A stretch of DNA of 53,249 nt from Candidatus Gastranaerophilales bacterium (GTDB taxonomy: Bacteria > Cyanobacteriota > Vampirovibrionia > Gastranaerophilales > Gastranaerophilaceae): assembly GCA_947588755.1 (NCBI GenBank), contig CANPZB010000005.1, positions 1 to 53,249 on the forward strand, written 5' to 3'. Both the position numbers and the translations under genes were made by a program. Under the pieces are notes generated by a model that saw only the letters and a list, made by a program, of their open reading frames with translations, was not told where the DNA came from and made no database searches. This document shows positions 14,123-45,820 of this stretch, in pieces. Each line of letters begins with the position of its first letter. The first letter of the stretch is position 1.

Positions 14123-14151
14123 TTGTTATAAGTAATCCGATATGATATAAT
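14123..14151 (+). promoter_or_regulatory. Promoter giving a probably leaderless mRNA
   Basis: TTGTTA (14123-14128), 17 bases, TATAAT (14146-14151). The ATG of the 1164-aa gene begins at 14158, six bases after the -10 box, where transcription would normally start. No Shine-Dalgarno is present. The -35 lies in the hairpin TTACTTAT-TGTT-ATAAGTAA. Confidence 0.6.
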
Positions 14152-14157
14152 CTTTAT

Positions 14158-17100
14158 ATGGAATGTCCTAAATGCGGTTATGAAATAGACGACAAAGCTT
14201 TGGTGTGCCCGAATTGTAAGAAGGTACTTAAATTGGTCTGCCCGATTTGCAAAACAGTTAACGAAAATAATATCTGCAAAAAGTGCGGTTACGTTATTAT
14301 TTCAAAATGTAATAAGTGCGGCAAAATTAATCAGACTATAAATAAAAAATGTAAAAAATGCGGTTTTGATACCGAACGCAGTGTCATTCTAAACGAGAGC
14401 AATACCGATGATTTTGTCTTAATGACTATAGATTTTCCCAATATGGACGATATGAAAAATCTTTTAGGCTCGGTTAAACTCTTAAACAAATTTAAGATTA
14501 ATATTGATAAAATCATACTGGATTACACTAAATCAAACGGATTACGACGCCAGCTCATAAAAAATACTTATGTTATAAGATGCTGTAAAGATTACTCCTT
14601 CAAAGCTTCGGCTCATACAGCAATGACTACCGCAATCGAACTTTTGAACAGTATTACCAAAATGAACTGCAAACTTACCAAAAAAAAGAATGCTACCGTA
14701 AGATGCAATATCTTTCTTATGAAACGCAGTGTAAACGATAATCCCGATAACTTCGATTCGGGATATAACATAAGTCTTTTAAATCAATATTCCAAAAATA
14801 AGGAAGATAAAATTCTAAATACATTCCAAATTATAACCGATCAGAACGTTTTTGATGTTCTTGGAAATGACTACAGGCTTACCCCTCTTAATTCCGTTAT
14901 GATAAATAACGAAATGGTTATGTACTATGAGGCTGATGTCAGAGACAAAGTTAAGGTTGAGTACCCGCAAGATGATGAAGATGATGAAATTAAAATTCCT
15001 AATTTTGTTCAAAATATGCTTATTGAACAAGATAAAATTGACGGGGAATTTTTGAATAATCCTAACATAAATGCGGACATAGAAGCTATTTACGATATCA
15101 AACCCATTGAATTTGAAGATATTAAATGTGATTTTATCAGAACAGAAAATATTGATATTTTTTATCACATTGCAAACAAACTTCAAACAAATCCAAAAAG
15201 CATTTTGGCACTCAAAACAGCCGATTTATATAAACCGTATTCGCTAAAAATTATCAACACCGTAGAAAGTTTAAATTTATACAATAATATTATTACCATA
15301 ACCTGTTATGACGAAATGAAATATTCACCCTATTCATTTTTCAGAGATTTAGTTTCGGCTATTTTTGAATATACGGTTTCGCAAAAATTATTTTCACGGA
15401 ATGATTTTTCCATGTTTGCATCGGTTGACCCCGACGGATTAATTAAAGACCTTGTAATGCTTAAGGAAAGGAATGTAGAAGTAGCTGAGGATACAAGATA
15501 CGTATTCTTTGATATTTTCCTTACATTACTTCAAGCCATTCCCAATACGCTAATATACGTTGAAAACTTTGAAAAAATTGATTCGGCATCTTATGATGTT
15601 CTTAAATTCTTATTTGATGCCTTCGATAAGCTGGATGTAAGTTATTTACTTTGTTACGGCAAAGGTTTTTCGCTGCATAAAGACTCGCATTTCCTTATTT
15701 CAAGACCTTATTACTGTGAAATAACTTTAAAACCGACCGCATTTGAAAAAATGATAGAAGAAAATAAAAATTATTACCGCAATATACTTGATAATTTTTA
15801 TTTCCACAGGATAGCGAAATATTCTTGCGGAAGTATTCTTTATTTGGACATAGCCATCCAATATCTTATTGAATTGGGAGTTTATGAAGCTAAAGAAGAC
15901 TGTATTGACATGATAAATCCCAAAACTATCATAATACCTTCCAACATAAGCCGTCTTATGAAACGCCGATTAAATCTCTTAAAAGACGACATGGAGTCAT
16001 TCAGATTTCTCGTATCCGTTGTACTTCTGGGAACAAGAATTGATTTGACCACTCTGGAAAGTCTCGGATTTGAAAATATGTCCGAATTTATAGATAAACT
16101 TACCAATATGGGATACATTTATTTTTATAATAATTGTATGTATTTCCCTGATTTTAATCTTCTGCGTGAGTGTATTCTTGATGTTACAGACCCCGTTACT
16201 CTGAAAGAAATATCAAAAAGCCTTTTTGAAAAAGTAATGGATGAAAGTATGCCGAGTCCTTCAAAAGCTTTTATGTATAAATTAATCGGTGACAGGGAAA
16301 ATGAATTATCGCAATGGGAAAAACTGGCACGTATAAATCTTTCGCTCGGCGATTTTAATGCTTACCTAAACTGTACCGCCGAAATTCTTAAAATCCTTAA
16401 TGAAAATACTGATGAAGAAAAACAACCATCCGTTGATGAATATAAAATGCAGCTTTACGAAGAAATTTCACAAAATCTTTACCAATATATTCCGAATGAA
16501 ACTCCCGAGGTTGCTCTGGAAAGTCTGCAAAAACTTGAAGAAACAGGAGATGCCGAAAAAATTATATTCATGTGCAACAAATTAATACAAGGCAACTTAA
16601 TCTCTGGTAATTATATGCATGCACTGGAATTAACTCATAAAGTTTTGTCTTTACTCCCCGTATCTTCGCTTAATCCTGCTGACGGGAATTTTAATACATA
16701 TTTCTTTTTAATGTCTTTAATACATATTCATATTCTTTTTAATATCGGTGCATTAAACGACTGTATTGATGTCGGTTTTAAAGTATTGAATGTCGTTAAC
16801 GAAAATACCATACCGTATTTGAAACCCGAATATATATCTTCGGAAGATTTCAGAATGATGATAGTTGATGCCGTCGGTTATGTTGCGATGGCAAATGTTC
16901 TTGTCCTCGGAGGCAATGTTCATGAATTTTTAAAAATTGTCAGAAATGACGTAAGTTCCATTCCCGCTTCGTACGATTTATTTACTGTTTTACAGGATTT
17001 TATGCACGGAAAACTTACAAGCTTTAATGAAATTCAAACGGATGAGAATGACAAATTCGGTTCGTTTATTACGCATATATTGAATGCATTTTTACTAAAC

Positions 17101-17652
17101 AAAGATAATTCCGCAAGATTTGCCGAAGAAATTTATAAGGCAAAAATCTCCGCAGGCATGAATAATTTGCATCAGCTTGAATTGTTTGCGGATTTAATGA
17201 TAGGCAGCGTATATGCCGATATTGAATCATACCAAAAGGCGGAATATATAATAAACAAAGTTATTAAAACCGCAGAAGATAAAGGTATGTCTAATCTTCT
17301 TTATGCGGCATGGTACGTTTTAAGTTGTTTGAAATTAAAATTAAACAAATATAATGCTGCATTCGGTATTATAAATAACTCTCTTATACAATTAGAAAAA
17401 AATAACTTCACGTCAGAATATTTAATAATGATATATAAATACAATATGTATAAAGTTTTAATGTTCCAAAAGGAATTTGACAAGGCACAAATTTGTATAT
17501 CTCAGGCAAAATATATAGCATCAAAATACGGTATAAATTATAAATTTGATGAAAATCCCGACAGTTATATTCCTGTCGACGAAACAGACGATGACCGGTC
17601 AAATCCCGTATCATCGGATGAATTTCAGGATGAAGAAAGTGAGGTGTTATGA
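14158..17652 (+). CDS. Zinc-ribbon, cyclase-like, degenerate STAND ATPase and TPR protein
   Basis: This 1164-aa protein starts with zinc ribbons: repeated CxxC pairs within residues 3-69 (CPKCGY, CPNCKK, CPIC, CKKCGY, CNKCGK, CKKCGF). Residues about 85-260 look like a class III nucleotide cyclase domain that has lost catalytic residues; only the first Asp (MTIDFPN) is obvious. Residues about 330-560 align to the ATPase of the 996-aa protein at 39005-41995, but the P-loop is replaced by ALKTADLYKPYS (about 351-362), while the Walker B-like strand LIYVENFEKID (465-475) remains. The C-terminal half is helical, TPR-like, with an acidic tail. It is probably a scaffold or regulator rather than an enzyme. 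Its stop overlaps glgA (ATGA), hinting at a link to glycogen synthesis. Confidence 0.75.
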   Translation: MECPKCGYEIDDKALVCPNCKKVLKLVCPICKTVNENNICKKCGYVIISKCNKCGKINQTINKKCKKCGFDTERSVILNESNTDDFVLMTIDFPNMDDMKNLLGSVKLLNKFKINIDKIILDYTKSNGLRRQLIKNTYVIRCCKDYSFKASAHTAMTTAIELLNSITKMNCKLTKKKNATVRCNIFLMKRSVNDNPDNFDSGYNISLLNQYSKNKEDKILNTFQIITDQNVFDVLGNDYRLTPLNSVMINNEMVMYYEADVRDKVKVEYPQDDEDDEIKIPNFVQNMLIEQDKIDGEFLNNPNINADIEAIYDIKPIEFEDIKCDFIRTENIDIFYHIANKLQTNPKSILALKTADLYKPYSLKIINTVESLNLYNNIITITCYDEMKYSPYSFFRDLVSAIFEYTVSQKLFSRNDFSMFASVDPDGLIKDLVMLKERNVEVAEDTRYVFFDIFLTLLQAIPNTLIYVENFEKIDSASYDVLKFLFDAFDKLDVSYLLCYGKGFSLHKDSHFLISRPYYCEITLKPTAFEKMIEENKNYYRNILDNFYFHRIAKYSCGSILYLDIAIQYLIELGVYEAKEDCIDMINPKTIIIPSNISRLMKRRLNLLKDDMESFRFLVSVVLLGTRIDLTTLESLGFENMSEFIDKLTNMGYIYFYNNCMYFPDFNLLRECILDVTDPVTLKEISKSLFEKVMDESMPSPSKAFMYKLIGDRENELSQWEKLARINLSLGDFNAYLNCTAEILKILNENTDEEKQPSVDEYKMQLYEEISQNLYQYIPNETPEVALESLQKLEETGDAEKIIFMCNKLIQGNLISGNYMHALELTHKVLSLLPVSSLNPADGNFNTYFFLMSLIHIHILFNIGALNDCIDVGFKVLNVVNENTIPYLKPEYISSEDFRMMIVDAVGYVAMANVLVLGGNVHEFLKIVRNDVSSIPASYDLFTVLQDFMHGKLTSFNEIQTDENDKFGSFITHILNAFLLNKDNSARFAEEIYKAKISAGMNNLHQLELFADLMIGSVYADIESYQKAEYIINKVIKTAEDKGMSNLLYAAWYVLSCLKLKLNKYNAAFGIINNSLIQLEKNNFTSEYLIMIYKYNMYKVLMFQKEFDKAQICISQAKYIASKYGINYKFDENPDSYIPVDETDDDRSNPVSSDEFQDEESEVL

Positions 17653-19097
17653 AAATATTATTTGCATCGGCAGAAGTTGCTCCGTTTTCAAAAGCAGGCG
17701 GTTTGGCAGATGTAGTAGGCAGTTTGCCGAAATATATTGATAAAAATACCGAAATAGCAATTTTTACTCCGCTGCACGGTTTAATTGACACAAATAAATA
17801 CGGAATAAAAGAACTTGAAAATTCCGAAATGTGGCTCACTTTCGGTAATCAGGGGCATAAATTCAGGTTGTTCATGTGTAAATTGCCAGAAACAAACATA
17901 AATGTTTTTTTTGTACATAACGACTGGTATTTTACGTGTTTTAAGGATGTTTATCCAAAATGGCTTGATACAAGATATGAACATGAAAGATACATAGCAT
18001 TTTCTTTAGCCGTACTTGAATACGCTAAGCTTTTGAACTTTAAAGCCGATGTAATACATGCCAATGACTGGCATACGGCTATGATTCCCGTATATTTAAA
18101 AAGTAATTACAGATACGATGAATTCTGGCAAAACACAAAAACGGTTTTTGAAATCCATAATCTGGCTTATCAGGGGGTATGGTTTGAAGATGTTCTTGAT
18201 TTTGCAAATATGAGAAAAGACATTGTTTACAATGAATGGGGCGTAGAGCATTACGGAAAAGTTAACTGGATGAAAGGTGCAATAAATTATTCGGAAAAAG
18301 TCATTGCGGTTTCACCCAATTATGCAAGAGAAATTTTAACCGGTGAATACGGAGAAGGAATGGATTATACATTACGTATGAATCAACATAAGTTAACAGG
18401 TATTTTAAACGGTATCGATTACCATATATTTACCCCGAAAACCGATAAAAATATCGTTAAAAATTATGATGTTAAATCATTAAAATTAAAAGAAGAAAAT
18501 AAGAAAGAGTTATGCAAAGCGTTCGGTTTAGAATATAATCCGAAAAGGCCCTTATACGGAATGGTTTCACGTCTTGTCCCGCAAAAAGGTATTGATTTGG
18601 TCAGAGCAGCGGAAAATGATTTGAAAAATGCGGAAGCTGATTTTATATTTTTGGGAAGCGGTGACAAAGACTATGAAAATTTGCTTATCTGGCTTTCAAA
18701 CAATTCTTCAAACATAAGAGCCTACGTAGGATATGACGCACAACTGGCAAACAGGATTTATGCGGGAAGTGACTTTTATCTTATGCCCTCGGCATTTGAA
18801 CCTTGCGGTTTGAGTCAGCTTATTGCGATGAAATACGGCTGTCTGCCCGTTGTAAGAGCAACTGGAGGACTTGAAGATACCGTAACGGGTTATCCCCTTG
18901 CCGATTCAACAGGTTTTAAATTCTGGGGTTATGACTCATGGAGTATGATGCAGGCTGTTTATTGCTCTATGGGGGTTTATCAGGATAAATATACGTTTAA
19001 TGCTATGCAAAAAACCGCAATGAACGCAGATTTTTCATGGAATAAAAGTGCTAAACAATATATGGAATTATATAAAAATTTGATAAAAGTTTCCTGA
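17649..19097 (+). CDS. glgA: Glycogen synthase (ADP-glucose type, GT5)
   Basis: GlgA extends alpha-1,4-glucan chains from ADP-glucose. The 482-aa protein has the GT5 hallmarks: [28 protein letters not shown] at the N-terminus, written here in parts as [10 protein letters not shown] for the ADP-glucose site; [18 protein letters not shown]; and the C-terminal [18 protein letters not shown] with the catalytic Glu, followed by [10 protein letters not shown]. Length is normal for bacterial GlgA. The ATG lies inside the upstream gene's last codons (ATGA overlap), so translation should be coupled to the zinc-ribbon protein, an unusual partner. No other glg gene is in the window. Confidence 0.96.
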   Translation: [482 protein letters not shown]

Positions 19098-38973: not shown

Positions 38974-39006
38974 AAGGCATGCATAAAATTTATGTGTGCC
39001 TTTTTT
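38974..39006 (+). terminator. Terminator after the GGGtGRT gene
   Basis: AAGGCATGCATAAA pairs with TTTATGTGTGCCTT (two G-U wobbles) around a tiny loop and is followed by TTTTT. It lies between convergent genes and could also act on the opposite strand. Confidence 0.75.
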
Positions 39007-41995
39007 ATTGGTTAAGTTCCAAAGAATTCATATTACAGAATGCTTTCAGTGCATTTTCGCAGTTTTCAATTTTTTTGATTACGTGGTTATTGTTGGTAAA
39101 TGAAGTATATTCTTTAGCTTTTTGATACATTTTAGATGAAGCGTTTACATAATCATTTTGATGTTCGGACTTGTTTAGTCCGAGTTCCTGATAGTATTTC
39201 CCGTAAAGCAGGTAAAGACGTGATAATAAATCTTTCAGCCCAAATCTTTCGGCATCAGCTATTGCCGTTTTAAGCTGGATTTTTGCACTTTCAAAATCCG
39301 AAATGGTAATATTTGCCTTAATTATTATTGTTCTTAAGAGAATGGCGAAGTAATAGTTATCAATTTTCGGATTTAATGCCACGTCAAGTGCCTGTTGTGC
39401 TATTTCCGAAGCATTTTGAGGACCTTCGGTAATAAGTGTTGCATCCGCAATTAAATACCAGGTTAACAAAGCACCCAGAGCCATCTTCTCTTTTGCAAAG
39501 TATGTTATTTGTTCATTATATATATCCATGGCACGGGCGGTTTGTTCGTAATCTTTAAAAACTTTGCCCAGAAGTGTTTTTAAAGTATTTTTTGTAAAAT
39601 TATCTCCGTTATTATCGGCAAATGTTACGATTTGGAATAAATCCTCCTGAATGTTGTTGTATTGTTTTCTCATAAAGTTATTTACGGTATTGATAAAGTT
39701 CCATCTCAATATGGCTTCATTGTCCATAACCGATGTTTTGTATAGTCTTAAAATTTCTTCAAGCATATTATCTGATGCTTTAAAATCACCTTTTATCGTG
39801 TTTGCAAACGCCAGTGCCAGTTTACATTTGCAAATAAACAATTCGTCCTGAATATTATTGCGTTCGATTATATCAAAAAGAATTGTAAGTATTTCAAAAC
39901 ATCTGTCATTGCCTTGTATTACCAATGCATTTGCCAGCATCAGGTAAGTTTTGAGACAAGTTTCAAATACAAAACCCAAAGAAATATGTTTTGTATTTTT
40001 ATTTTTAATTAAAAAATTATCCAGAACAGGCATTATTTCATTGTCAATCATATTTATGACCTGTCCGCAGTTGCCGATATTGAGTAAAGCACCGAGTTTG
40101 GAACATTTTAATAAAGCTGTTTCAAGTTCGTTGACGGAATTTATGTTATTATCATTTTCATCATTTGTATGTATTTTTTTAATAGCTGCATCTACGCATT
40201 CTACTTCGCCATAGTAGTTTCCTGTTTTTCTGCAGCAGTATGAAAGGTAAGACAATAATTCAATTTCTTTCGGTGTATCTCCTACAGCCTGTGCGTTAGC
40301 AATACCGTCGGGAAGATATTCCATTGCTTCCGAGGGATTTGATGAGGACAAAAGTTTTCCGAGTCTTTCGGAAATATTATATCTTGTCTTTAGTGTTTGA
40401 TGTTCGTCCAGTTCATTAATTAAAGCCAAACATTGTTTCTGTGCTATGGCATAGAGATTAGTATCTCCTATGAATGCTCCTAAGCGTGTGTTTTTTGTCC
40501 ATATATCAAAGGCAAATTCCGTTTGTTTAAGATTTTGGGCTATAACCGCAAGCAATGTAAAAGAACTTAAGGTTATATTGCTCAATGATGACAATATTTT
40601 TTTATTTATTTCAATGAATTTTTTTTCATCTTTGCCTATATTTAAAAGGGTTTCCCATATTAGTAAACTGCTGAATTCAAAATATATTTCGTTCATGGGG
40701 ATTATGTAATCCATTTTATTAAGATATAAGATAATATCATTGAATTTGTTATCATCAAGATTATAAATTTCTTTTATCAAATTTATGTTGATTTTATCGC
40801 CGAGAATTGCGGAGGCAGTAAGTATTTCAAAAGCGGCAGGATTTATTTCCGAAAGAATTAATAAACGTTGTTCAATCAGTTTTTTTACGGTATTTGCAGG
40901 TTTAAAGTCTTTGTCGGCAATTTGTGAATCAAATTTCAGACAAAGTGCCTGATTTATATACAGCGGATTACCTTTGCCGGAAGTGTAAATATGTTTTTTC
41001 TCATCTTCACTTACGAAAGGAAAACCTTCTATGTTTTTTTCTTTTTCTTGAATAAAATTTTGCATGTAATTATATTCCGTCGGTGCAATTGTCATATCAA
41101 GGTATATATTTTCGTTTTCATCTTCAAGATAGAAATATCCCTTTGAGGGTTTTATTTTGTTGTATAAAAGTATAAATTTAAGATTAGCCTTGATTTGGGG
41201 GCGTCTTATCAAATGATTTAAAAAATCGTAGGAAAATCCGTCTATATATTCAAAGTTATCTGCCGCTAAAATGAATTTGTTATTACTTTCAATTTTTTCA
41301 AATATTTTATACAGAAAGTTATATGTCTTATGTTTGTTTTCCGTTAAATCTTCAAAATTACCTTCGGTAGTCGGGTATAAAAAGTTCATCAAATCAAAAA
41401 TTTCATTATTTGTGAGTTCGGGAAATTCACTCTTGAAAAATTTTGATGCCTCTTTCTTAAACTGCATATTATTAACGCAAATATTGGGCAGATTAAACAA
41501 ATTCAAAAGCATATCCTGAATAAGTCCGCCGGACGTAAGCTGTGTTATCGGGGTGCATTTGCCGTAAATCCAGGAAAAATGCAGGTCTGCGAGTTCTTTC
41601 ATCGCGGTTTTAAGTACGAGAGTTTTTCCGATACCTTTTTGCCCTGTCAAAGAAAAAATCTTTTTGTTGTCGGAAAGCAGTCCTTTAATGAGAATATTTT
41701 TTGCATTTTCCTGAGATATTGAATTAGGCGGATATTTCAAATCCTGTTCTTCAATTTCGGATTTATCGGGTTTAAAAGAATAACTGCATTTGCGGCATTT
41801 TTTCGCTTCGGGCATGTTTGCAGAGGAACAATTAGGGCAAATTTTCAGAATTTCATTTCCGCAATTTTTACATTTTTTTGACAAAATCGAGTTAACGGTA
41901 TTGCATTTTTTGCATATCAAACCGGTTCTTGTTTTACAATAAGGGCATTTTACGGAATTATCGGGAATTTCTTTTTTGCATTTGGGACATATCAT
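39005..41995 (-). CDS. Zinc-ribbon STAND-like ATPase with TPR repeats
   Basis: This 996-aa protein begins with zinc ribbons (CxxC pairs within residues 3-70: CPKCKK, CPYC, CKKC, CKNCG, CPNC, CRKC). It then has an AAA/STAND-type NTPase with Walker A GQKGIGKT (118-125) and a Walker B-like FILAADNFEYID (241-252), and a C-terminal helical TPR-like region (about 450-990). This is the plan of signal-transducing STAND ATPases, with the repeats as sensor and zinc ribbons as likely nucleic acid or protein contact. It aligns with the degenerate homologue at 14158-17652 but lacks the cyclase-like insert. It lies 16 bp downstream of a sigma factor on the same strand, suggesting a shared regulatory circuit. 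Confidence 0.82.
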   Translation of the reverse strand: MICPKCKKEIPDNSVKCPYCKTRTGLICKKCNTVNSILSKKCKNCGNEILKICPNCSSANMPEAKKCRKCSYSFKPDKSEIEEQDLKYPPNSISQENAKNILIKGLLSDNKKIFSLTGQKGIGKTLVLKTAMKELADLHFSWIYGKCTPITQLTSGGLIQDMLLNLFNLPNICVNNMQFKKEASKFFKSEFPELTNNEIFDLMNFLYPTTEGNFEDLTENKHKTYNFLYKIFEKIESNNKFILAADNFEYIDGFSYDFLNHLIRRPQIKANLKFILLYNKIKPSKGYFYLEDENENIYLDMTIAPTEYNYMQNFIQEKEKNIEGFPFVSEDEKKHIYTSGKGNPLYINQALCLKFDSQIADKDFKPANTVKKLIEQRLLILSEINPAAFEILTASAILGDKININLIKEIYNLDDNKFNDIILYLNKMDYIIPMNEIYFEFSSLLIWETLLNIGKDEKKFIEINKKILSSLSNITLSSFTLLAVIAQNLKQTEFAFDIWTKNTRLGAFIGDTNLYAIAQKQCLALINELDEHQTLKTRYNISERLGKLLSSSNPSEAMEYLPDGIANAQAVGDTPKEIELLSYLSYCCRKTGNYYGEVECVDAAIKKIHTNDENDNNINSVNELETALLKCSKLGALLNIGNCGQVINMIDNEIMPVLDNFLIKNKNTKHISLGFVFETCLKTYLMLANALVIQGNDRCFEILTILFDIIERNNIQDELFICKCKLALAFANTIKGDFKASDNMLEEILRLYKTSVMDNEAILRWNFINTVNNFMRKQYNNIQEDLFQIVTFADNNGDNFTKNTLKTLLGKVFKDYEQTARAMDIYNEQITYFAKEKMALGALLTWYLIADATLITEGPQNASEIAQQALDVALNPKIDNYYFAILLRTIIIKANITISDFESAKIQLKTAIADAERFGLKDLLSRLYLLYGKYYQELGLNKSEHQNDYVNASSKMYQKAKEYTSFTNNNHVIKKIENCENALKAFCNMNSLELNQ

Positions 41996-42011
41996 TTTTT
42001 TATACCCTGTA

Positions 42012-42587
42012 TTAATTAAAAGCTTCTTTAACTTTCTCCATTAATTTAAAAAGTCTTTTTGATGTTTCGGATTGTGAAATTCCTGTTTTTGCGGCTATTT
42101 CTTTTTGAGTCATGCCTTTTTGAAATCTTAGTATAAAAAGTTCCAAATATTTTTCATCAGGTTCTTCGGAATTAATTTCAATAACGGTATCAACAATTTT
42201 TTCCAAAATGTCTTTTTTTATGGCAAAATTTTCGGGAGTTTCCGGAATATTAACGGAACTGTAAGTTATTTTTGCGGAAGAATAATCTTGAGTATCATCG
42301 GCTATTTTATCGAGAGAAACTTCACCGCTTGACATATATCCGCTTTTGCCGCGTCTTAATCTGCCTGAATTCTTCAATACATTCAAAATAGAGGTAGTGG
42401 CTATTTTTCTTAAATATGCCTCTAAAGTATCTTCGGATGAAACTGTTTTAACAATTAACAAAGAACGCTTGCAGGTTTCGTTGAAGAAGTCATCATACAA
42501 GTCCTCGTTGTTAATATATTTGCTGTTTGATTTAATTATTTTTTCAATTAAACCTAATTTATCTTGTGCGAGTTCCAATTCTAACAT
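42012..42587 (-). CDS. Sigma-70 family factor (ECF-like)
   Basis: The 191-aa protein ends with a clear region 4 helix-turn-helix: LELFILRFQKGMTQKEIAAKTGISQSETSKRLFKLMEKV, key parts MTQKEIAAKTGISQSE. The N-terminal part (EDTLEAYLRKIATTSILNVLKNSGRLRRG) fits region 2 of compact sigma factors. It is the middle gene of a three-gene minus-strand unit, 29 bp after the giant acidic protein and 16 bp before the zinc-ribbon ATPase. AAGGA lies just upstream of ATG, and an extended -10 (TGC-TATAAT, 42605-42613) suggests a second, internal promoter. Confidence 0.82.
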   Translation of the reverse strand: MLELELAQDKLGLIEKIIKSNSKYINNEDLYDDFFNETCKRSLLIVKTVSSEDTLEAYLRKIATTSILNVLKNSGRLRRGKSGYMSSGEVSLDKIADDTQDYSSAKITYSSVNIPETPENFAIKKDILEKIVDTVIEINSEEPDEKYLELFILRFQKGMTQKEIAAKTGISQSETSKRLFKLMEKVKEAFN

Positions 42588-42604
42588 TTCCTTCTCTCTC
42601 AGAC

Positions 42605-42613
42605 ATTATAGCA
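42605..42613 (-). promoter_or_regulatory. Extended -10 box upstream of the ECF-like sigma gene
   Basis: Minus-strand TGC-TATAAT, with no good -35. It lies 18 bases before the sigma factor ATG and just upstream of the 1067-aa gene's end, so sigma factor and ATPase could be made without the membrane protein. Confidence 0.4.
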
Positions 42614-42616
42614 TGA

Positions 42617-45600
42617 CTATAAATTTATTATAAGCCCCAAATTATAGCTATCGCCTTTAATCTCGCCTACAGGCGGTTTTACAACATTTAAAGTATCTTT
42701 AACACATTGTAACACAATTTTATCAATTTGCTGTGAACCGCTTGAGATAACTATGTTTGCTGCTTCTACATTACCGCCGCTGTTTAATTTTACACTTACT
42801 TTTACTCTGTTCGAGTAAGCATATTCCGTTGCAAGAAGCAAATCGACCGAGAGTGAAGATTTTATACTCTTACCTGCCGTATTCAAATAAATCTGGAATT
42901 TTTTGCTGTAAGAAAGGTATCCGGGAACGTCCCAAACGATTTTACTTACGGATAAGTCTTTGTTTGAGGATTTTGATACTGAGGATTGTGAACTTTTTGC
43001 GGAATTTTTAATATCCGTTGTTTTTTTATTAATGTCGTTTTGGCTTATATCAGGAGTGTTTGAAGCTATATTGTTTGTGCCGTCAAACGGGTTTTCCTGA
43101 TTTATATCGGGATTTTGGACATCCGCTGTCGTTTCCGTTGTTTGAGGTGTTTCGGCTACATTTGTATCATTTTTGGGTTTCAACAATATCATTGCTGATG
43201 TTGTGACCATAACTAATGCTATTGCCGCTGCCGTTATAAGCAATTTTTTGTTTTGAATAAGCGGTGATTTTTCAAGAAATGCTATTCCGGGTATTTTGTA
43301 TAAAGGTTTATTGTCTGTTTCTTCGGTATTTTGCAGTTCTGACAGATTTTCGGCAGGAATTTCACCGTTTTCACTGTATAAAATTCCTAATTTTTCTTCG
43401 TTATTATCCTGAAATTCCGTATCGGCTTCATTGTTAAACATAACCTGCTCGTCTGATTGCGGAGCTTCTTCCGAAAAATTGTTCGGGTAGGGATTTTCAT
43501 TAACCGTATCATTATCGTCTGATGCCAATACAGTTTCTTTTTCTTCTTCTTCTTCTTCTTCTTCTTCTTCTGCTGCTGCTGCTGATATTTCTTCATGTTG
43601 AGTTTGCAAATCAGTTTCGCTGTATTGTGTTTCGGAAGCGGTATATTCGGGAATATCTTCATTAGCAGACTCGTTTAAAACAGGTAATTCATCAACGGGC
43701 ATTTGTTCCGTCATGTCAGTTTGTTCGCTAACCCCGATTTGTTCAATTTGTACATCTTCAAACTTATCTTCCGAGTTTTCGGTTGCAATGTTCGTATTTA
43801 TGAGTTCGTCAGCCTGTGACAGTAATTCATCTGACGAAATATTGTCGGTATTTGTGTCCTCATTGATATTTTCATGGGTTTCCGGCTCGTAGTCAGGTAA
43901 ATATTCGTTAACCATTTCCAGAACTTTGTTGTCCTGTTCTTCGCTAAATTCCATGGTATCATCTATAAAATCTTCCAAATCATTAATATCATTTTGGTCA
44001 AATGCCGATATATTTTCTTCTTTTACCTGTTCAATTTCATCTTGAGGTTCTTCTGTTATTTCATCTGCTGTTTTTTCGGTTATGTCAAAAGTTTCGTCCG
44101 CTTCTTTATTAATTTCTTCTCCCGTTTCGTCTTGATTTTCAATATATTCTTCATTATATGTCTTGTCTTGAAAATCTTCGTGTAAATTATTTTCATTGTC
44201 GTCAGAAAGCGTCAAATAATCTTCTTCAAAGTTTTCTGTTATTTCATTTGGCTCAATTTCAGGTTCCTGAATATTAATTTCATCTAAAGAAACCAAATCT
44301 TCATCAATTGTTGTTTCTTCGGTATTATCAGTGTCGGTAATGCTTGTTTCCGTACTGTTATCTAAGGATATTGTTTCATTATCATAATTTTCTTCTTTAA
44401 GTTCGGCAGAAGATATATTTTCTTCAATTGTATTAAAATCAATTTGCGGCAAATCGGTAATATTAAGAGTTTCTGCCGCAATGTTTTCAGCCAAACCTTC
44501 GGCTGCCGCACCTGCGATGCCTCCCGCTATTCCTCCTATTATTCCGCCTGCGATACCGCCTGCTATATCACCCGCAATACCGCTGTTTTCATGAGTTAAT
44601 TCCGATTTGGTATCTGTGTCTTCTTCTGCCGTATTTCCCGATAAATCGTTTTCTTCACTTTTTTCATTCAATTCCTCAAATACCACATCATCAGTGATTT
44701 CGATTTTTTCATTTTCAGGTTCTTCCTGTGTTATTTCATCATCCAAAATGGAATTTTCTAACAGGTTATCAAACTCATCATCCGAATTTTCTTCGTCAAA
44801 TGATACTTCGTCTTCGGTATTTTCATTATCCGAAAGTAAAATATCTTCGACATCTGAATTTTCAGTTTTCAAAAGTTCTTCGGCAAAAATATCATCCGTC
44901 TCGGAGATTTCATCAGGCATATCGGATATTTCTTCAATTGCTTCTAAATTTTCTTCAATTTCAAAGTCATCCGTTAATTCTTCTTCGGGCTGTTCTTCCG
45001 TATCGGCAGTTTTATTTTCTTCCTCCTGATTTTCTTCATCCGAAGGGACATCAATTTCATCAATCAAAGCGGAGGATATTTCTTCATGATTTTCAGGTTC
45101 ATAATCTTTTAATTTGTCCTGATTATCGGTTTCCGTCAACGATTTGTTGGAAAGTAATTCAAAGTTTTCATATTCTATAAATTTATCTCTTAAAATCGCA
45201 CTTTCGGTTAATTTTTTTAACAGGTATTTTTTGTCGCTGTTACTGATGTCATTATCTTCCATTGAAATAATAAGGTTTTCGCATTTTTCAATTTCCGATT
45301 CGCTTAAACTTTTATATGTGTCGCCTTTAAAATCTTTTATATACTTTTTTAAATCCGAAGGACTGCTTAATTTTTCTTTTTCAATAAAGTAATATTCATC
45401 ATTATGATTATTTTTATTAATTAATTTGGGTTCAAAAAAGCCGAGCAGTTTAACATATTGTTCATCTTCAGCTATTTGCAGTGCAAGATAGATATCGGGC
45501 AAAATGTCATATTCAAAATGGGTTTTGGGGATGAAGATAAAGTTTTCATCAAAAACAACTCTGACATCAATATGGATGTTTGGAAGCATTATATCGGCAA

Positions 45601-45820
45601 TATCAAATTCTTCCAGCACTTTTTTAATTGAATGTATGTTGTGTATATCGGATACGTTAATCTTTTCCGAAGCAAGATATTTCATGGCAAGCTGAGCACC
45701 GAGGGCATTTGTATAAGTTCTGCTGCGTGTTTGTTTATCGGCAAAACTTTTTACCGTTGCCGCAGCTTGTAATTCGTCATCTTTTTCAATATAAATCAAA
45801 GCATTTTTGTCATAACCCAT
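42617..45820 (-). CDS. Giant acidic membrane protein: DUF1822-like N-terminus, TonB-like C-terminus
   Basis: This 1067-aa protein has five visible parts. Residues about 20-135 resemble the cyanobacterial DUF1822 family (VVFDENFIFIPKTHFEYDIL, then DIYLALQIAEDEQYVKLLGFFEPKLI). Residues about 230-850 are extremely acidic and disordered. Within that lie a glycine zipper at about 414-442 (GIAGGIAGGIIGG-like) and a run AAAAEEEEEEEEEE encoded by (GCA)4(GAA)10. One membrane helix lies at about 860-882 (LLITAAAIALVMVTTSAMIL). Residues about 962-1067 look like a TonB/TolA C-terminal domain (VKVSVKLNSGGNVEAANIVI). The long acidic part is therefore cytoplasmic and the TonB-like end extracytoplasmic. AAGGAG precedes ATG. 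It heads a unit with a sigma factor and ATPase, so a signalling role (anti-sigma or sensor) is a reasonable guess. Confidence 0.72.
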   Translation of the reverse strand: MGYDKNALIYIEKDDELQAAATVKSFADKQTRSRTYTNALGAQLAMKYLASEKINVSDIHNIHSIKKVLEEFDIADIMLPNIHIDVRVVFDENFIFIPKTHFEYDILPDIYLALQIAEDEQYVKLLGFFEPKLINKNNHNDEYYFIEKEKLSSPSDLKKYIKDFKGDTYKSLSESEIEKCENLIISMEDNDISNSDKKYLLKKLTESAILRDKFIEYENFELLSNKSLTETDNQDKLKDYEPENHEEISSALIDEIDVPSDEENQEEENKTADTEEQPEEELTDDFEIEENLEAIEEISDMPDEISETDDIFAEELLKTENSDVEDILLSDNENTEDEVSFDEENSDDEFDNLLENSILDDEITQEEPENEKIEITDDVVFEELNEKSEENDLSGNTAEEDTDTKSELTHENSGIAGDIAGGIAGGIIGGIAGGIAGAAAEGLAENIAAETLNITDLPQIDFNTIEENISSAELKEENYDNETISLDNSTETSITDTDNTEETTIDEDLVSLDEINIQEPEIEPNEITENFEEDYLTLSDDNENNLHEDFQDKTYNEEYIENQDETGEEINKEADETFDITEKTADEITEEPQDEIEQVKEENISAFDQNDINDLEDFIDDTMEFSEEQDNKVLEMVNEYLPDYEPETHENINEDTNTDNISSDELLSQADELINTNIATENSEDKFEDVQIEQIGVSEQTDMTEQMPVDELPVLNESANEDIPEYTASETQYSETDLQTQHEEISAAAAEEEEEEEEEEKETVLASDDNDTVNENPYPNNFSEEAPQSDEQVMFNNEADTEFQDNNEEKLGILYSENGEIPAENLSELQNTEETDNKPLYKIPGIAFLEKSPLIQNKKLLITAAAIALVMVTTSAMILLKPKNDTNVAETPQTTETTADVQNPDINQENPFDGTNNIASNTPDISQNDINKKTTDIKNSAKSSQSSVSKSSNKDLSVSKIVWDVPGYLSYSKKFQIYLNTAGKSIKSSLSVDLLLATEYAYSNRVKVSVKLNSGGNVEAANIVISSGSQQIDKIVLQCVKDTLNVVKPPVGEIKGDSYNLGLIINL

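Follow-up and report, generated by a model that had tools for sequence, protein, structure and literature searches.

The 1164-aa protein encoded at positions 14158-17652 (+) of the window, the whole 53,249-nt stretch of Candidatus Gastranaerophilales DNA analysed here, is a conserved pseudoenzyme whose distribution among genomes follows most closely that of a ZorAB-type motor. Given the working name ZP, it consists of zinc ribbons, a pseudo-cyclase, a pseudo-STAND core and a TPR-like region, and both of its nucleotide sites are degenerate across the family. We propose, with evenly balanced confidence, that ZP serves as the soluble, non-catalytic adapter of a membrane motor of the ZorAB type, one that is anchored to peptidoglycan and driven by ions. 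A functional link between ZP and ZorAB is the more probable part of this proposal, and direct contact between them is a more tentative one.

The ZP reading frame is long and open, as described in the first-pass annotation of this DNA. Directly before it lies a promoter-like site, TTGTTA-17-TATAAT with an extended -10 (14123-14151, +), found by consensus scan only, in which total sites were about equal to those in shuffled sequence. Three to four zinc ribbons with intact Cys pairs (14161-14370, +; Pfam DZR E 2e-8, Zn_ribbon_3 E 9e-8) open the protein, and their cysteines are invariant in 28 orthologues. AF2, Foldseek and alignment identify a class III cyclase-fold domain at residues 76-268 (14383-14961, +), in which the catalytic acids are not conserved, while AF2 and Foldseek place a STAND-like NTPase core at residues 305-720 (15070-16317, +). 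The C-terminal TPR-like region, residues about 721-1130 (16318-17547, +), was recognised from TPR_MalT/TPR_6 matches in the orthologue L085 and is also backed by full-length homology to the TPR part of a 996-aa paralogue. Only zinc-ribbon families match ZP above the Pfam cut-offs, the NCBIfam and PADLOC models gave no match, and the literature held nothing specific on this architecture or on glycogen in Gastranaerophilales. The AF2 structures are of two separate ZP segments, residues 76-268 and 305-720. ZP is present in 103 of 146 genomes of the window's family and in members of two sister families (f4 and f5), and is single copy and near universal inside the genera that carry it.

The segment at residues 76-268 is predicted with a pLDDT of 89, and its best 50 Foldseek matches in the PDB are all nucleotide cyclases (best E 5e-7). 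Sequence-only support for this fold is weak: in one search the only PDB matches at E<5 are two cyclases, and a separate search gave an E of 0.001 but a probability of 19%. ZP shares the fold of the class III nucleotide cyclases but not their metal-binding acids. Both metal-aspartate positions, judged by eye in an alignment against genuine cyclases of the same order, are variable across ZP orthologues (D/E/T/N/Q and N/G/D/E), and the NxxxR motif that supplies the transition-state Asn/Arg is absent from the orthologue alignment. The earlier description of a cyclase-like domain missing key acids therefore holds. Because the window's own ZP pair is saturated at synonymous sites, closer pairs were used to estimate dN/dS, which is 0.01-0.03 for the domain in unsaturated pairs, a rough value as synonymous distances are large. 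With values this low, the dead domain must be kept for something other than catalysis, and ZP is under strong purifying selection. The cyclase-like segment is already degenerate in the old, ancestral paralogues of the order, so the dead cyclase predates ZP. A recently dead cyclase is ruled out, since the domain is degenerate in all relatives within the order that have a recognisable copy, and no relative with an intact cyclase was found elsewhere in the phylum.

A sequence search of the PDB with the pseudo-ATPase gave no match, and structure comparison was therefore needed. Residues 305-720 are predicted with a pLDDT of 91, and the best Foldseek match is MalT (8bob; E 2e-6, TM 0.57 over 407 columns), followed by Avs3/Avs4 and other STAND/AAA+ proteins. 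Together with homology to the paralogue, the AF2 and Foldseek results identify a STAND/AAA+ fold with a winged helix and a TPR-type sensor. The predicted core is MalT-like over its whole length and, as in STAND NTPases of the MalT type, is followed by a TPR-like region. Unlike these proteins, ZP lacks Walker A in every orthologue, has no recognised DNA-binding domain, and carries zinc ribbons and a cyclase fold at the N-terminus.

Profile-profile alignment of 28 orthologues with the 996-aa paralogue places the paralogue's FSLTGQKGIGKT against ILALKTADLYKPYS in ZP, so that the P-loop GQKGIGKT of the former falls on TADLYKPYS of the latter. The degenerate P-loop position in ZP is ALKTADLYKPYS, residues 351-362 (15208-15243, +). 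None of 35 ZP orthologues has a GxxxxGK[S/T] Walker A motif, and the loss is therefore not peculiar to one genome. By comparison, all 48 paralogue-type rows in a joint alignment of 84 proteins have GxGK followed by S, T, N, D or, once, K. ZP from the sister family f4 has GETNTGKL at this position, a half-decayed form. Of the earlier claim about the ATPase, the replacement of the P-loop stands, but Walker B is only partly altered, with VEN/IEN in place of IDN/IDD, and D475 and S478 are invariant. With no usable P-loop, ZP is likely to act, if at all, by binding rather than by ATP turnover.

The paralogue, P996, is encoded at 39005-41995 (-) and shares zinc ribbons, STAND core and TPR region with ZP, as had been noted from the sequence; the homology extends over the full length (profile-profile E 4e-71). 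In contrast to ZP, P996 retains an intact P-loop, has lost the cyclase-fold domain and sits with a gene for an ECF-type sigma factor (42012-42587, -; TIGR02937 E 7e-19), a conserved upstream neighbour that adjoins P996 in most family loci. A 1067-aa protein with a TonB-like C-terminus (42617-45820, -) is encoded by the first gene of the operon. The three-gene arrangement (39005-45820, -), comprising the TonB_C-ended protein, the sigma factor and the zinc-ribbon STAND paralogue, is conserved in f5 (L176) as well as in most loci of the family, and has the appearance of a sigma factor paired with a dedicated STAND regulator. P996 is present in nearly all genomes of the family, with or without ZP, and its type is found through the order, while ZP, which has members in f1, f4 and f5, falls on one side of a branch with full support. 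In the phylum, matches to the zinc-ribbon/STAND family at E<1e-20 are confined to the order, apart from one distant match. A degenerate cyclase-fold-like segment is found in P996-type members of f2, f4, f5, f6 and several f1 genera; the long linker of many paralogues is cyclase-like by length, and its sequence is in most of them a low-complexity linker. The duplication was followed by loss of the P-loop from ZP and, in the window's lineage, of the cyclase fold from the paralogue.

Two further observations concern this family. In the P996-type proteins L115, L116, L117, L118, L130, L132 and L133 the P-loop ends in GKN/GKD rather than GKS/GKT, so that in some genera this supposedly active type, too, may be on the way to losing nucleotide turnover. 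A very divergent ZP-like protein of 1039 aa, lacking the N-terminal zinc ribbons, is encoded at L111:4728-7847 (genome G045, genus g9) and forms a long branch on the ZP side of the tree; G045 also has zorAB.

The genes that track ZP form a pair encoding a ZorA-like protein of about 300 aa and a ZorB-like protein of about 230 aa. Adjacency and co-occurrence with ZP were tabulated from gene coordinates. Among the 146 family genomes, 102 have both ZP and ZorA, 38 have neither, one has ZP only and five have ZorA only, although some absences are uncertain because the assemblies are incomplete. Fisher's test, which ignores relatedness, gives p 2e-28 for this association. Of the five ZorA-only genomes, G045 has the divergent ZP-like gene placed with ZP in the tree and G008 belongs to the same genus, G082 has a completeness of 57%, and both ZP and glgA are absent from G115 and G134, as expected if a contig were missing. 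Among 22 genomes outside the family, a ZorA-like gene is found only in the two with ZP (G154 and G149). Counted on the paralogue gene tree, which is not a species tree, ZP and zorAB change together in all five supported independent comparisons and in seven on all branches, with none discordant. The corresponding sign test gives p 0.06, short of 0.05 but the smallest value obtainable with five pairs. zorAB is divergently adjacent to ZP in 19 genomes of eight genera (g4, g13, g15, g23, g24, g25, g28 and g30) and in both sister families, f4 and f5, and divergent transcription is the ancestral arrangement. The two are unlinked, and both kept, in 83 genomes; in the window's genome (1.83 Mb, 89 contigs) zorAB lies on contig C76, apart from ZP. 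Nine genomes (g15, g23, g25 and g28) have zorB-zorA, ZP and glgA as one locus.

This pattern could also arise if ZP and zorAB were core genes with separate roles, acquired together early and inherited vertically, the overlap of ZP with glgA then being a product of genome compaction. zorAB, like ZP, is single copy and found in nearly all genomes of the genera that have it, and tight gene spacing is common in these genomes, the ruvA-glgA pair being an example. Separate roles nevertheless sit poorly with joint gain or loss on several occasions without a discordant case, and with divergent adjacency in eight genera and two other families, and we consider this explanation unlikely. Counting against the adapter reading, the co-occurrence could come partly from joint gain or loss of a linked locus, the co-inheritance represents only 5-7 independent events, and glgA rather than zorAB is the gene linked to ZP in most genomes.

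The identity of the pair is supported by profile searches. The best solved relative of the first protein is ZorA (8qyy, E 5e-28), and ZorA structures are its only PDB matches apart from two annexin matches near E 0.09. For the second protein ZorB is the best match (8vvi, E 6e-25), above MotB. PADLOC calls the pair ZorA1 and ZorB1, while the curated NCBIfam cut-offs for Zorya are not reached (67-80 bits against 100 for ZorA_2 and 47-70 against 400 for ZorB1/B2). The closest known system is the ZorAB core of Zorya I and II (PMC11890865; 8qyd, 8vvi, 8vvn), the first protein being of the MotA/TolQ type and the second having, like ZorB, a transmembrane aspartate and an OmpA-type peptidoglycan-binding domain. 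This aspartate (position 23), in the motif FW..M.D, is present in 30 of 30 distinct sequences, and H133, D135, L155, R159 and R207/R208 of the ZorB-like protein are invariant in 12 sequences. ZorB mutants altered at the corresponding kinds of residue no longer give defence (PMC11890865). Conservation of the aspartate and of the peptidoglycan-binding residues makes it probable that the motor is active.

For Zorya I and II to work, ions must flow through ZorAB, ZorB must bind peptidoglycan and ZorA must have its cytoplasmic tail (PMC11890865). The ZorA-like proteins, by contrast, are about 290-345 aa long and end soon after the core, so that the tail is absent. Most end in D-x-V-D-D/E-L-F or a close variant (e.g. 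L207:439-1470), a motif that is weaker in the two sister families and some genera. No tail-less ZorA was found at E<1e-30 outside the order among the genomes sampled from the class. The pair also differs from Zorya in being vertically inherited and in having no recognised effector nearby, its proposed partner here being a pseudo-STAND protein. If the pair and ZP made up a divergent phage defence system of the Zorya type, in which ZP acted as the sensor or the effector, the specific homology to ZorA and ZorB would be accounted for; STAND proteins such as Avs3 and Avs4, both fold matches of ZP, sense phage. However, defence loci are patchy, whereas this system is single copy in nearly every genome of 28 genera. 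ZorC and ZorD (type I) or ZorE (type II) were not recognised among the examined neighbours of zorAB or ZP, and ZorA lacks its tail. ZP itself is unmatched in PADLOC and has no recognisable nuclease, and the pair falls below the Zorya cut-offs. A role in phage defence is therefore highly improbable.

Longer ZorA homologues, in reading frames of 543 and 588 aa, occur at G154:C200:14005-14802 and G050:C45:9723-10535, and may mark true Zorya loci that coexist with the tail-less system. A gene of about 453 aa often follows zorA-zorB, overlapping it or a few bases away (L209, L215-L220, L223 and L224); two that were checked by Pfam are DUF711.

Returning to the adapter proposal, ZP is almost always inherited with the tail-less ZorA, which makes this large soluble TPR protein a natural candidate for the missing cytoplasmic part of ZorA. 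The cytoplasmic face of ZorA would dock on ZP, perhaps through the C-terminal D-x-V-D-D-L-F, a candidate docking peptide on the basis of its sequence conservation. ZP would then relay the state of the motor to its targets without using ATP or producing cAMP. Known ZorAB motors act in phage defence and cannot do without the ZorA tail, whereas the tail-less motor described here is conserved and vertically inherited in many genomes of an uncultured lineage of gut bacteria, where it accompanies ZP. Should ZP and ZorAB work together, the system would represent an ancestor or relative of Zorya with no role in defence, and would offer a natural experiment on the function of the ZorA tail. It would also provide a clear example of duplicates decaying in complementary ways, one copy keeping the cyclase fold without the P-loop and the other the P-loop without the cyclase fold.

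glgA, encoding a 482-aa glycogen synthase (17649-19097, +; TIGR02095 497 bits), overlaps ZP by four bases, and the ATGA overlap reported earlier is real. A Shine-Dalgarno-like AAGTGAGG for glgA lies inside the 3' end of ZP (17637-17644, +), and a similar GAAAGTGAGG precedes glgA in most orthologous loci. Adjacency on the same strand is found in 74 of 103 genomes and 20 of 28 genera, which excludes an arrangement limited to the window's genome, the finding that the first-pass annotation had named as fatal to its proposal. The ZP stop and glgA start overlap as TAATG or ATGA (one or four bases) in many loci. On the ZP tree, adjacency requires 5 changes, compared with 11.9 when labels are shuffled. 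Even ZP proteins that share only about 25% identity have glgA beside them, whereas most other neighbours of ZP-glgA differ between distant loci. The conserved adjacency, the overlaps and the few changes on the tree support a real ZP-glgA operon.

These data are the main argument for ZP as a pseudoenzyme regulator or scaffold of glycogen synthase, in which translational coupling sets the ratio of the two proteins and ZP binds GlgA to tune or place it. The resemblance of the ZP core to MalT, a regulator of maltodextrin use, and the presence of glgC in the window's genome are in keeping with such a role, while a GH13 branching enzyme model found no match in that genome. However, of the 43 genomes that lack ZP, 39 still have glgA, which excludes glgA as the phyletic partner of ZP, and in the ZP-less loci examined glgA is equally close behind ruvA. 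Both observations weaken a specific ZP-GlgA partnership, as does the separation of ZP from glgA in eight genera and both sister families. Given also that the strongest phyletic link of ZP is to the motor, the pseudoenzyme half of the original proposal is supported and its specific role in glycogen synthesis is not; we rate such a regulator as improbable. The coupling of ZP to glgA is best read as a later, conserved addition. As ZP is made together with GlgA in the window's lineage, glycogen synthesis may be one output of ZP there. A bolder and rather doubtful version of the adapter proposal is that the minimal, tail-less rotary motor of gut Gastranaerophilales uses ZP as a detached substitute for the ZorA tail and that in some members of the group ZP, through its co-production with GlgA, couples glycogen synthesis directly to the condition of the cell wall or of the ion gradient. 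ruvA is immediately upstream of glgA in L140, L141, L146 and L155, where ZP is not beside glgA, and in the window ruvB lies two genes upstream of ZP.
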